Positions 1,188 through 5,392 of a stretch of DNA of 5,392 nucleotides are shown in pieces. Under the pieces are notes generated by a model. That model saw only the letters and a list, made by a program, of their open reading frames with translations. It was not told where the DNA came from and ran no database searches. The DNA is from Candidatus Fermentibacterales bacterium. GTDB taxonomy: Bacteria > Fermentibacterota > Fermentibacteria > Fermentibacterales > JAFGKQ01. Location: NCBI GenBank assembly GCA_016928495.1, contig JAFGKQ010000151.1:1-5392 (forward strand), in the 5' to 3' direction. The position numbers and the translations under genes are program-made. The stretch's first letter is position 1. Each line of letters opens with the position of its first letter.

Positions 1188-3581
1188 CTATCGCCAGACG
1201 ACTCTGTCGCCGTCCATGAAGAGCCCCTGCTCCACGTGCGGAATTGCGCCCTCGCCCTTGAGGACCTCCCCGCACTCCGGGCACACGGTGGCGCCGAACG
1301 GGAGCTCGCAGTCACAGAACGGGCATATTCTATCAAGTCTCGCGGAGACGTAAACCGCTAGCTCCGATGCGGTGATGTCCCCATCCGCGTTGCTGTCGGC
1401 GGCACCCCTCGAGCCGTCCAGCAGGATCGGCGTGAGGATGCGCTCGCTCACGCTGTTGTCCTCAGCGGCCGCAGCGAGGATCAGCAGGTCGCCGGAGCCC
1501 TCGAAGTCGTTGACGAATCCTCCCGAATGGCAGGCATCGAGGAAGAGCAGCACCTCGCCCGCTGCGGAGGAGCGGACGAGCCGGGCGAGGTCGTCGTCCG
1601 AGAGGTCTCCGTCGTAGAGGCAGAGCTCCTCGTTGGCGGCGTCCTCCTCCTCGCTGCCCCCAGAACCGGGGGCCAGCTGGTTTCCATGACCGCTGAAGAA
1701 CAGGATGGCACGATCCTCGCTCCCGGCCCTGGAGAACAGCTCCTCCAGCCAGGACTCGAAGGAATCGAGGGTCGCCATCCGATCCACCAGCATCACGACG
1801 TGGTCCTCGGGCACCAACTGGTCCTCCGTCAGGAACCGGTGGAAGTCCATCGCATCCATCGTAGATCGGTTGAGAGCCCCGCTACCCTCGTACCCGCTTA
1901 TTCCCACGACCAGCGCCCATGTCTCGGGGACTCCGGCGGAGGGGCCGGCGAATCCATGAACCGGCACCGTCCTGCTGGTGATCGTGTAGCTGCCCACTCC
2001 AGCCCGCTCGTAGGCGTAGACCGTGATGCCGTAGCTTCCTCCCTCACCCGTGTAGACGGCGACGGACTCGTCCCCCGCCCTGTCGACCGAGCTTATCCAC
2101 CCGGCGGCGACGACGTCTGCCTCGGGGCCGGAGACGAACATGTCCAGGTCGCTCTCCCTCTCCTTGCCGGTCATCTCGATGAGGAGAATGGAGTTGGGCA
2201 GCGACTCGACCCTGTAGAAGTCCCTGGGGTGACCCTCCGGCGAGTCCACCCTTCCCTCGACGAGACCCTCCAACGCTGCCGCGCATGCCTCCATGAAGCC
2301 GATGGTGACGGGACCCGGAGAAGACGAGTCCAGGGACTGAGGACCGAGCCAGAGCGTGTCCGCCGCGCCGATCCAGACGATGTACTCCTCCTCGGGCTGA
2401 CCGGTCGAGAGCACGACGGACGGCCCTCCGGGCTCACGGTAGAGGGCCAGGTCGCCGCTGGAAGCCTTGGGGCCCGCGCTCGACCAGACCGTGTAGAGAC
2501 CCTCGGCCCCGGGAGCCAGCCCGACCAGCGCGGCCTGCTGTGCTGAAGCCTCGATGCCGGTCTCGAAGGGCGGCCTGCGATCATGGACCAGCATGGGCTC
2601 CTCGAGAGCAAGCCGGAACCTCGTGCTCTCCTCCGAGCCCAGGTCGAAGGCAACGACCTCGGCGACCAGCTCTCCCGCGCCGGCAGGCAGGAGGACGCCC
2701 TCGGAGGCGGAGTAGCTGGCCGAGCCGTAGAGGTACTCCCCGCTCGACGGGTCCCTGACCGTGAGATCGAGATCCGCATCGAGGTCCTCGCCCTCGAGAG
2801 ACAGCAGCAGGGGCGAGTCGGCGGACAGGTCGGCGACGTACCTGCGGACGGGCTGGCTGCCGTGCAGCCTCCCGCTGGCTGCCTCTCCGGGCCCCAGGCC
2901 CTGGAGGCCGGCCCTGCGTCTCGCCTCGAGCCTGAAGCTGCCGTCGCCCGACTTGTCGTACCTGCTCACTACGACCAGCACGTCCTCACCCTCCAGGGCC
3001 TGGCAGTCCAGGCTCTCGCTGCCCTCCGCGGAGTAGCTGCCCCCCCAGAGGTTGTTGCCGGTGCCGTAGATCTCCAGGTCCAGATCGGTAGGGCTCAGGC
3101 CTTCCAGCTCTATCCTCCATTCGCCCGTCTCGCCGGGACGGAAGACGTAGTGGGCGGCCATCCTGTTCAGTCCGACGCTACCCCTCGCCGTGCTCCCTCC
3201 GAGCTGGATCGGCTCGTCCTCGGTGAGGCTGATCCTCACGACTCCTGAGTAGTCCGGGTCGAGAGACTCGAGCATCACGTAGAACCAGTAGTGGCTCACC
3301 GCACTCAGGAACAGGTCCTCGCCTCCGGAAGAGGAACAGAGCACGTCACCCCGGTCGTCGTAGGCCACGAGCCTGATCTGCGCCCCCGCCCGCGCGTCAG
3401 TCCGGAGACGGAGCGAGACGTAATCCTCCTCCAGGACCCTGACCCATGCCGAGCCGCCAGCCTGCAGCTCCACCTCGAGAGTCTGTCCCCTGCTGATCAC
3501 GGGAATCCTCTCGGCGTCCGGGATGAACTGGGACGAGGCAGACGCCCAGAGGAGGAGCATCAATGAGACGGTGCGGGTCAT
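1188..3581 (-). CDS. Secreted metacaspase-like C14 peptidase with PPC-like repeats, EF-hand loop and C-terminal zinc ribbon
   Basis: Predicted exported cysteine protease of 797 residues. Residues 1-17 form a short signal peptide: MTRT, a hydrophobic stretch VSLMLLLWASA, and an A-S-A site suggesting cleavage after 15. Residues 30-537 look like about five beta-rich PPC-like domains (roughly 30-118, 125-222, 227-328, 335-430, 432-537). The second, third and fifth carry the DLDL/DLDM strand motif at 166, 270 and 478. The C14 caspase domain spans about 553-750: it opens with TWALVVGISGYEG, has catalytic His632 in FFSGHGNQ and Cys684 in FLDACHSGGF, with an acidic loop between them (EEEDAANEELCLYDG). 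Asp682, two before the Cys, matches the metacaspase DxC pattern linked to Arg/Lys specificity; that specificity is inferred. A canonical EF-hand loop (DSNADGDITASE, 729-740) follows, then a zinc ribbon CPFC-x10-CPEC (753-770) with an extra Cys758. No C-terminal membrane anchor is seen. The ATG start has a strong ribosome site. Substrate unknown. Confidence 0.88.
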   Translation of the reverse strand: MTRTVSLMLLLWASASSQFIPDAERIPVISRGQTLEVELQAGGSAWVRVLEEDYVSLRLRTDARAGAQIRLVAYDDRGDVLCSSSGGEDLFLSAVSHYWFYVMLESLDPDYSGVVRISLTEDEPIQLGGSTARGSVGLNRMAAHYVFRPGETGEWRIELEGLSPTDLDLEIYGTGNNLWGGSYSAEGSESLDCQALEGEDVLVVVSRYDKSGDGSFRLEARRRAGLQGLGPGEAASGRLHGSQPVRRYVADLSADSPLLLSLEGEDLDADLDLTVRDPSSGEYLYGSASYSASEGVLLPAGAGELVAEVVAFDLGSEESTRFRLALEEPMLVHDRRPPFETGIEASAQQAALVGLAPGAEGLYTVWSSAGPKASSGDLALYREPGGPSVVLSTGQPEEEYIVWIGAADTLWLGPQSLDSSSPGPVTIGFMEACAAALEGLVEGRVDSPEGHPRDFYRVESLPNSILLIEMTGKERESDLDMFVSGPEADVVAAGWISSVDRAGDESVAVYTGEGGSYGITVYAYERAGVGSYTITSRTVPVHGFAGPSAGVPETWALVVGISGYEGSGALNRSTMDAMDFHRFLTEDQLVPEDHVVMLVDRMATLDSFESWLEELFSRAGSEDRAILFFSGHGNQLAPGSGGSEEEDAANEELCLYDGDLSDDDLARLVRSSAAGEVLLFLDACHSGGFVNDFEGSGDLLILAAAAEDNSVSERILTPILLDGSRGAADSNADGDITASELAVYVSARLDRICPFCDCELPFGATVCPECGEVLKGEGAIPHVEQGLFMDGDRVVWR

Positions 3582-3689: not shown

Positions 3690-4406
3690 TCAGGCGAGGA
3701 AGGGGTTGTGCGCTCTCTCCTCGCCCACCGTCGTGCTGGGCCCATGCCCCGGATGGATGACCGTGTCGTCCGGCAGGACCAGCAGCCTCTTCCTGATCGT
3801 CTCGATCTCGGCTTCGAGCGACGCCCCCCAGAGCGGGCCGTGCCCCGGGATGCTGTCGGTCCCGACCGATCCCTGGAAGAGTATGTCCCCCGAGATCACG
3901 AAGCCGGGCCCCTCTCCCGGCCCCGCTGTCCAGCGGAGCCCGATGCTTCCCGGGGAGTGGCCGGGAAGACCGAGCACGGTCAGGGAAGGGCCGCCGGCAT
4001 CCAGCTCGAGCAGGTCGCCTTCGCCAAGGCTCAGATCGAGCCTGTCCCTTGCGAGGAAGATGTCGCGACCCAGCGCTCTGGAGGCATTGAGCACAGGATC
4101 GGTCATGAGGGGAAGATCGGCCTCGTTGCCGGCCAGGGGAGCACCGAGCTGATCCGCCCAGTACTCGGCATCGCAGATGTGATCGGGATGGCCATGAGTG
4201 AGGACCACGGCGAGCACGCGGCCGCGCCCGGGCCCGGGCAGGAGGCGGGAGCGCAGGTGCTCTCTCTCCCTGTCGTCGACCGTCGAGGGGTCGATCAGCA
4301 CGGAGTTGCCGGACGACACGCTCTCGACGAGATAGCACCGAGTCCAGGTCCAGTCCCTGGCCACCTGCGTCGAGGACACGCGCACCGGGCAGCTCACTCC
4401 TGGCAA
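3690..4406 (-). CDS. MBL-fold metallohydrolase (glyoxalase II-like)
   Basis: Predicted cytoplasmic, zinc-dependent hydrolase of the metallo-beta-lactamase superfamily, with no signal peptide. At 238 residues it is of normal length for stand-alone members, and the full ligand set is present: LTHGHPDHI (His71, His73, Asp75, His76), His150 in GLPGHSPGS, Asp174 in ISGDILFQGS, and His221 in HPGHGP, followed by the usual ERAHNPFL tail. The layout resembles glyoxalase II-like hydrolases, but the superfamily covers many substrates, so none is assigned. The start is uncertain. TTG at 4406 has GGGAG 5 bases upstream. GTG at 4397 overlaps the stop of the preceding gene as GTGA. GTG at 4385 has AGGAG 11 bases upstream. 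Homology to the usual N-terminus begins only near residue 10, so all three remain possible. Either upstream choice overlaps the preceding gene, implying translational coupling. Confidence 0.88.
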   Translation of the reverse strand: MPGVSCPVRVSSTQVARDWTWTRCYLVESVSSGNSVLIDPSTVDDREREHLRSRLLPGPGRGRVLAVVLTHGHPDHICDAEYWADQLGAPLAGNEADLPLMTDPVLNASRALGRDIFLARDRLDLSLGEGDLLELDAGGPSLTVLGLPGHSPGSIGLRWTAGPGEGPGFVISGDILFQGSVGTDSIPGHGPLWGASLEAEIETIRKRLLVLPDDTVIHPGHGPSTTVGEERAHNPFLA

Positions 4407-5080
4407 GCGAACTCCCGGAACGACCCGAACCGGACCGGGACGCCGTCCGAGGTCCTGAGCCTCAGAGCCAGGTCATACGCCACGAGCAGCACGTAGCCCC
4501 TCAGCTCCGGCGAGAAGGTCACGCAAGCCGGAATGGTCTGCCCCTCGAACAGCAGCGACATCTCGATCCTCTCCTCGTAGAGCGGAGCGGGCGACCACGT
4601 GCAGAAGACGACCCGCAGGGCGGGGCTGTGCGGGTCGGGGATCCTCAGCAACTCCCGGAAGAGCCCGAAGTCCCCTCCGAGGTGATGAATGGCGGCCTGC
4701 ATCTCCTTCGGCGTCCTCCTCGTGTTCGAGGAGGGCTGAGGGACCCTGGTGACGAACTCGAGCCCTTCCTGCTCGGGGTAGCCGAGCTCGAGAAGAGCCT
4801 CCGCCTCGGAGAGACCGGCGGCCAGGAGAGCCGAGGCATCCGCGGGAGGAAGAGACGCGGCCACGTCCCCGGAGCCGGCGGACCACAGACCGGGGGACCT
4901 CGCGAGCATTGAGACCCTGTCGCCGGCAGCGCTTCTCGAGATCTCCCGGACATGGCTCCTCAGCGACGCGAACTGCGGGATCCAGACGGAAGAGCGCCTT
5001 CCGCCAGCCCACACGGAGAGGTGGTAGAGGGCTCTTCCGACCTGCCACGGATTCTCGAAGAGGGAGGGGAAGACCAGCAT
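4394..5080 (-). CDS. Hypothetical protein, 228 residues, family not recognised
   Basis: I do not recognise this protein. It is a complete frame from an ATG 5 bases after the recombinase stop to a TGA overlapping the start region of the MBL hydrolase, so it is probably translated as part of a three-gene unit. There is no signal peptide or clear membrane segment. The N-terminal third is rich in Trp and Arg (NPWQVGRALYHLSVWAGGRR at 10-29). Residues 78-101 look helical (ASALLAAGLSEAEALLELG). The second half alternates hydrophobic residues as in a beta sheet: LRVVFCTWSPAP at 155-166, RIEMSLLFEG at 171-180, and GYVLLVAYDLALRLR at 195-209. The C-terminal half looks like an alpha/beta domain. No catalytic motif stands out. 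The ribosome site is weak (GAGG about 11 bases upstream), consistent with coupling to the recombinase. That the frame is real follows from its fit between two good genes with minimal spacing. Confidence 0.7.
   Translation of the reverse strand: MLVFPSLFENPWQVGRALYHLSVWAGGRRSSVWIPQFASLRSHVREISRSAAGDRVSMLARSPGLWSAGSGDVAASLPPADASALLAAGLSEAEALLELGYPEQEGLEFVTRVPQPSSNTRRTPKEMQAAIHHLGGDFGLFRELLRIPDPHSPALRVVFCTWSPAPLYEERIEMSLLFEGQTIPACVTFSPELRGYVLLVAYDLALRLRTSDGVPVRFGSFREFACQE
4412..4416 (-). promoter_or_regulatory. Candidate ribosome binding site for the MBL hydrolase TTG start
   Basis: GGGAG on the minus strand, inside the end of the preceding gene, lies 5 bases before the TTG at 4406 and 14 bases before the GTG at 4397. 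A competing AGGAG (4397-4401) lies 11 bases before the GTG at 4385, so this site does not settle the start. Confidence 0.35.
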
Positions 5081-5085
5081 CTCGC

Positions 5086-5392
5086 TCAGGGCCTCGGGTG
5101 GAAGCTCCTGAGAACCTCGCTGAGGTAGCTCCGGTCGATGTTGGTGTATATCTCCGTCGTCCTTATGTCAGCGTGCCCGAGAAGCTCCTGGACCACTCTG
5201 AGATCCGCTCCGCCCTCCAGCAGGTGAGTGGCGAAGGAATGCCTGAGAGTATGGGGATGGACCTCGCGATCGCCAAGACCGGCCATGATGGCCGACCTCC
5301 TGACCACGTTCCAGACGGTCATCCTCGTGAGAGGCCTGCCCCTGTAGCTGAGAAAGACGTTGTCGTGCCTGTCACAGCCCGGCCGGAAAAGG
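5086..5392 (-). CDS. Tyrosine recombinase, XerC/XerD type, C-terminal part (5' end cut by window edge)
   Basis: C-terminal 101 residues of a tyrosine site-specific recombinase; the N-terminal SAM-like domain and first catalytic Arg lie beyond the right edge. The frame stays open to the edge, so the ATG at 5322 is internal and not the start. Visible catalytic residues, counted from the first full codon, are His47 and Arg50 ([19 protein letters not shown], the H-x-x-R box), His73 in LLGHADI, and the nucleophile Tyr82 in TTEIYTNI. The tail ends in FHPRP, close to the HPR ending of many XerC/XerD proteins. Spacing and motif wording match the chromosome-dimer resolvases better than typical phage integrases. 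No dif-like site is visible, and XerC versus XerD cannot be decided from this part. The next gene starts 5 bases after the stop, suggesting cotranscription. Confidence 0.9.

Follow-up and report, generated by a model that had tools for sequence, protein, structure and literature searches.

The stretch of DNA analysed here (the window, 5,392 nucleotides) is an entire 5.4-kb contig, part of a 2.3-Mb metagenome-assembled genome from the phylum Candidatus Fermentibacterota (Hyd24-12, including Fermentibacter, Aegiribacteria and Sabulitectum). It carries a gene for a 797-aa C14 metacaspase-like protein, which lies at exactly the coordinates given in the original prediction and on the minus strand, which that prediction had left unstated. 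All other genes of the window (xerD, a gene for a 228-aa protein, an MBL-fold hydrolase gene and an incomplete pheS) share this orientation (Table 1). A chance reading frame is ruled out by full-length orthologues (42-47% identity), the absence of internal stops and occurrence in about 30 genomes. The RNA families searched gave no match in the window, its DNA repeats are only short and of a chance type, and the single promoter-like match (1327-1354) falls within the protease gene itself.

Table 1. Genes of the window and predicted features of the C14 protein (residue numbers refer to the 797-aa product).
Feature	Positions	Strand	Basis or remark
xerD	5086-5391	minus	
Gene for a 228-aa protein	4394-5080	minus	no significant family match; between xerD and the protease gene
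MBL-fold hydrolase gene	3690-4406	minus	upstream of the protease gene
C14 metacaspase-like protein gene, 797 aa, apparently exported	1188-3581	minus	stop included; ORF, full-length orthologues, structure
Hydrophobic leader, residues 1-17, putative short Sec signal peptide	3531-3581	minus	hydrophobicity; pLDDT <50
Beta domain D1, residues 22-124	3210-3518	minus	8 strands; profile match D1-D3 60%
Beta domain D2, residues 126-224, DLDL motif	2910-3206	minus	ColG fold match; profile match D2-D5 97.7%
Beta domain D3, residues 225-331, DLDL motif	2589-2909	minus	KP-43 fold match; profile match D2-D3 87%
Beta domain D4, residues 332-431	2289-2588	minus	8 strands; profile match D2-D4 74%
Beta domain D5, residues 432-541, DLDM motif	1959-2288	minus	PF04151 E=2.1e-4; profile match D2-D5 97.7%
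Caspase p20 subdomain, residues 550-695	1497-1934	minus	PF00656 555-695; AtMC4 Z 22.4
Catalytic His632 codon	1686-1688	minus	invariant; aligned to metacaspase catalytic His
Catalytic Cys684 codon (DACHSGG)	1530-1532	minus	invariant; aligned to metacaspase catalytic Cys
p10 subdomain, residues 696-797, including final core strand 794-796	1191-1496	minus	metacaspase, legumain and paracaspase alignments reach 797
EF-hand-like loop, residues 729-740	1362-1397	minus	same motif and place in other-phylum C14 proteins
Zinc-knuckle insertion CPxC-x10-CPxC, residues 753-770	1272-1325	minus	four invariant Cys; inside p10
pheS, incomplete, next gene downstream	3-1166	minus	NCBIfam PRK04172 E=1.3e-78; phylum-wide adjacency

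The N-terminal part of the protein had been predicted to contain about five PPC-like beta domains, three of them with a DLDL/DLDM strand motif. The family alignment was cut into five segments of ~100 residues, which were then compared profile against profile. The segments matched one another (from 60% for D1-D3, through 74% for D2-D4 and 87% for D2-D3, to 97.7% for D2-D5), and no repeat exceeded 1.1% against the catalytic or the zinc part. The AlphaFold2 model of the 797-aa protein (pLDDT 83.5, pTM 0.77) builds every one of the five segments from approximately eight strands, and a separate model of D1-D3 reached a pLDDT of 91.8 and a pTM of 0.86. A fold search with the latter aligned D2 with the collagen-binding domain of ColG (Z 13.5, rmsd 2.0, 94 residues aligned); fold searching also related D2 to the PPC domain of the Bacillus anthracis collagenase (Z 12.9) and D3 to the beta domain at the C-terminus of protease KP-43 (Z 10.7, rmsd 2.2, 93 aligned). 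The assignment to the PPC/collagen-binding-domain fold is thus based on structure for D2 and D3 and on profile comparison for D1, D4 and D5. The PPC profile itself (PF04151) matches residues 466-523 of the window protein (E=2.1e-4) with 22.5 bits, missing the curated cut-off of 25.9, and is matched at E<=0.1 in 27 of 29 family members (best 4.1e-8), the matching domain (D2, D3 or D5) varying between members. The DLDL/DLDM motif was found in three domains, as anticipated (residues 166-169 in D2, 270-273 in D3 and 478-481 in D5), and degeneration within the array is strongest in D1 and D4. Foldseek matches of the array to CUB, SIDT and parts of botulinum haemagglutinin were set aside as generic beta sandwiches. 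Overall, the PPC matches across the family, the segment profiles and the predicted strands bear out five beta domains, and profiles and structure prediction support a long PPC-type array placed ahead of the caspase fold; its five members are predicted to be homologous eight-stranded domains of the PPC/collagen-binding type.

The C14 assignment of the following part, with an intact His632/Cys684 pair, proved correct. All 29 family members compared match PF00656, the window protein over residues 555-695 (E=1.9e-12, 47.8 bits against a cut-off of 21.4), and both catalytic residues are invariant in the 27 rows of the alignment, together with Ser630, Asp682, Asp647, Asp662, Asp663, Asp692 and the four putative zinc-ligand cysteines. 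Residues 552-797 of the model align best with AtMC4 (Z 22.4, rmsd 2.4, 208 aligned), followed by other metacaspases, legumains (Z ~20), MALT1 and caspases; the Pfam C13 (legumain) profile also matches 29 of 29 members (best 3.8e-8). With the EACC1-type caspase model (NF047832), the window protein scored 42.7 bits, short of the cut-off of 140. The catalytic part is accordingly modelled as a metacaspase-type fold with an intact His-Cys dyad.

The Lys-binding pocket of AtMC4 contains Ser84 and Asp137, located two residues before His86 and Cys139, respectively (PMC7206013). Ser630 and Asp682 occupy the same H-2 and C-2 positions in the aligned window protein, and from the conservation of these S1 residues we infer that the C14 protein cleaves after Arg or Lys. 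The calcium ligands reported for CgMCA-I are Asp198, Asp214 and Asp245 (PMC9622860). In the alignment, D662 corresponds to Asp214 and D663 to Asp215, N650 takes the position of Asp198 (an Asp in the second-phylum relatives described below), and D692 is one residue away from Asp245. As the calcium-site positions, like the S1 residues, are mostly kept, the predicted Arg/Lys cleavage is also predicted to be calcium-controlled. No Lys or Arg is found at the p20-p10 junction of the window protein, so that the self-processing between subunits that is usual for metacaspases is not evident.

Two further elements of the predicted chain, an EF-hand loop and a C-terminal zinc ribbon, are present and conserved, but neither is an added terminal or separate domain. 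The loop follows the pattern AD-x-N-x-DG-x-I-T-x-x-EL, which alignment showed to be common to other bacterial C14 proteins; it is an ordinary part of the bacterial p10, and its reading as an extra domain was rejected. The four cysteines of the putative zinc site (C753, C756, C767 and C770, in two CxxC pairs) are invariant, and most family members match zinc-ribbon Pfam profiles weakly, the window protein remaining below the cut-offs (DZR, 14.5 bits vs 27.3; Zn_ribbon_3, 11.1 vs 27). A C-terminal tail was rejected because the caspase fold runs on to residue 797. Since the caspase core includes strand 794-796, and CPxC...CPxC is replaced in other bacterial C14 proteins by a short loop or an insert free of Cys, the zinc knuckle is best placed, by alignment and model, as an insertion within p10 that precedes the last caspase strand.

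The predicted signal peptide was upheld insofar as a conserved hydrophobic stretch begins the protein, but this stretch is very short (10-13 hydrophobic residues across the family) and lacks any preceding Lys or Arg in 29 of 30 N-termini. The hydrophobicity of the N-terminal 10 residues is 2.07 for the window protein and 2.84 on average for the family, compared with 0.2-1.7 for cytosolic neighbours, and the family leaders fall within the range of secreted LysM neighbours. Residues 1-17 have a pLDDT under 50 in the AlphaFold2 model. Signal-peptidase-like ALA/VTA sites are present in several members, and PPC-type domains occur in exported proteins. Export is graded as probable rather than proven on account of the short leader devoid of basic residues. 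As a separate observation, the leaders of the family (window 3531-3581; L032-L067, L099 and L100) differ from the ordinary signal peptides that LysM neighbours encoded at the same loci carry.

A contig scan with the single sequence returned no relatives, whereas an alignment-based scan returned 36 loci. Full-length orthologues, 42-47% identical from end to end, occur in nearly every Fermentibacterota genome: 37 of 42 contain a PF00656 gene and, with two exceptions, these 37 have no other C14 gene. When fragments at contig ends are counted, a trace of the gene is found in 39 of 42 genomes, the remaining three being 66-88% complete. In Ca. Sabulitectum silens (L064), the reading frames of the C14 gene and of pheS are both broken, so that sequencing errors look likelier than gene decay. 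Full-length relatives are also present in four of four genomes of a second small phylum, with the dyad and the zinc cysteines kept in all three proteins compared. A third small phylum encodes independent proteins (L101 3118-5778, L102 2250-4919) in which C14 is preceded by four strong PPC domains and the zinc knuckle is missing. The search further returned ten long proteins with LPP20, WD40, Big_7, Sel1/TPR or C13 contexts, or with PPC and no C14. The full chain was absent from other lineages in two sets of ~385 genomes covering many bacterial families, and a pattern search of viral contigs found no relatives. The architecture is unusual, as originally proposed, but it is no isolated oddity: the gene is a core gene of Fermentibacterota and of the second phylum, and a PPC array ahead of C14 is also seen in the third. 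In Fermentibacterota it looks like a core, vertically inherited, single-copy gene.

Throughout the phylum the genes keep the order xerD - 228-aa gene - (MBL) - C14 - pheS, with pheT and uvrB coming next in loci that extend far enough, and the gap between C14 and pheS is 11-17 bp in most loci. Distances between C14 proteins track those of pheS (r=0.966; the highest value among 1000 permutations was 0.31). Second-phylum loci read rny-ymdB-folD-xseA-C14-alaS, and genes there overlap (names other than C14 were read from the sequences). Some Aegiribacteria carry insertions upstream of C14; the C14-pheS link is intact wherever a locus shows both. The spot between the 228-aa gene and the protease holds variable cargo (L035 3113-9983; L058 1779-10001; L059 2553-5047), including, as judged by eye, patatin-like, nucleotidyltransferase-like and AAA ATPase-like genes. 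The 228-aa gene is conserved across the phylum; the MBL-fold gene occurs only in some Fermentibacter-side genomes (L041, L044, L048, L049) and is missing from Aegiribacteria and Sabulitectum loci. As to the secretory background, the type IX secretion (T9SS) translocon protein SprA was found in 38 of 42 Fermentibacterota and four of four second-phylum genomes, with 10-33 gingipain-like C25 peptidases per genome in the former (G000-G041) and 9-18 in the latter. By these counts, Fermentibacterota appear as a strongly proteolytic, type IX secreting phylum.

With one copy in nearly every member of Fermentibacterota, next to a housekeeping tRNA-synthetase gene, the C14 gene looks as if it encodes a core enzyme rather than an accessory function in cell death or defence. 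Our favoured reading, held with moderate confidence, is an exported, vertically inherited, single-copy C14 cysteine endopeptidase of the envelope, metacaspase-like and of orthocaspase type, that would be calcium-controlled and Arg/Lys-specific and would have a housekeeping job. The housekeeping role is suggested by the copy number, the adjacency to pheS with its short gap, the correlation with pheS distances and the xseA/alaS overlap in the second phylum. The protein would be made together with PheS. Calcium may order the active site via the acidic loop ~647-663 and residues 691-692, the zinc knuckle of p10 could shape or stabilise the catalytic core, and the array might set the protease on, or space it from, the envelope or a substrate polymer; the prodomain and the surface/glycan-binding stalk of the original prediction are both candidate roles for it. 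The job of the protease could be, for example, to turn over or mature envelope proteins and secreted ones. A bolder version, by which this would be a phylum-defining, indispensable core enzyme of the envelope that depends on Ca and Zn and, as a processing protease or a ligase, brings about the maturation of type IX secreted or envelope proteins in both phyla, a physiological role for a bacterial caspase unconnected with cell death, is speculative and in our view rather unlikely.

The occurrence of SprA and of many C25 peptidases in both phyla, combined with the C13 profile matches and legumain-like fold, invites a more specific assignment, in which the enzyme matures or sorts T9SS or C25 cargo by cutting prodomains or joining cargo in the manner of the clan CD transpeptidases legumain, GPI transamidase and PorU. 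However, PorU-sized C25 proteins (~1130-1170 aa) are already there, the C14 gene is present without an SprA match in one genome that is 98% complete (G001), and co-occurrence across two related lineages cannot tell function from ancestry; we regard this assignment as unlikely, if worth keeping in mind. Comparably low is the probability of a scavenging protease for external protein, whose array would bind substrates that are collagen-like or otherwise fibrous, as ColG/ColH do. The collagen-binding domains of these enzymes are the closest to D2 and secreted C25 peptidases are plentiful in the phylum, but a single copy, strict conservation and coupling to pheS or alaS are unlike a niche enzyme, and a type IX tail is missing, as the protein ends with the final caspase-core strand.

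A cytosolic protease, with a leader that is no signal and a zinc knuckle reflecting the reducing cytosol, would account for the short leaders devoid of basic residues and for the translation-gene neighbours. It is made quite improbable by leader hydrophobicity far above that of cytosolic neighbours, by the PPC-type domains and by the ALA/VTA sites noted above. The least credible possibility, which we consider very improbable, is a programmed-cell-death or anti-phage effector. Other bacterial C14 proteins have been discussed in connection with cell death, and the generic 'caspase' model of PADLOC matches the window protein (2.6e-20); this match, however, is to the generic model only and spans just the shared caspase module, whereas vertical inheritance, a housekeeping operon, a lack of defence neighbours and the lack of viral relatives in the pattern search all speak against such a role.

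The roles of bacterial caspase homologues are largely open, and published surveys depict them as patchy and architecturally diverse. A C14 protein that is single-copy, syntenic, vertically inherited and phylum-wide, like the envelope endopeptidase favoured here, offers a good case in which to ask what a bacterial metacaspase contributes to the living cell, and its p10 zinc knuckle is a structural variation absent from the other C14 proteins compared. The main text of a 2012 survey (PMC3501461) lists 671 prokaryotic metacaspases with 71 Pfam domain types, WD40, TPR and Sel1 being the commonest partners, and reports metacaspase operons with translation genes; PPC, EF-hand and zinc ribbon are not mentioned in that main text. 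A later survey (PMC6426788) describes archaeal orthocaspases with EF-hand motifs and with Big_7 domains at the N-terminus. Our literature search retrieved no paper pairing pre-peptidase C-terminal with caspase.

Compared with known systems, the protein shares with bacterial metacaspases/orthocaspases (MEROPS C14, PF00656; GSU0716, 3bij) the p20-p10 fold, the His-Cys dyad, the residues of a predicted acidic S1 pocket and the EF-hand-like p10 loop; unlike them, it carries a zinc knuckle in p10 and five PPC-type domains ahead of the protease. Its closest solved folds are AtMC4, CgMCA-I and Yca1 (Z 18.8-22.4), with S1 and most calcium-site residues in common. In contrast to eukaryotic metacaspases, it is without a long self-inhibitory linker or a junction Lys/Arg and has an N-terminal array and predicted export. 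The eight-stranded fold of PF04151 and of the ColG-ColH collagen-binding domains is common to D2 and D3, whereas here five such domains follow one another, N-terminal to the protease and mostly under the Pfam cut-off. The PPC4-C14 proteins of the third phylum have the same array-before-C14 layout and a similar C14 module, but their array can be aligned to the Fermentibacterota family only next to the catalytic domain. Overall, the domain chain is unusual while every part of it is of a known kind; what is new here is the zinc-knuckle insertion in p10, the phylum-wide core status and the synteny.
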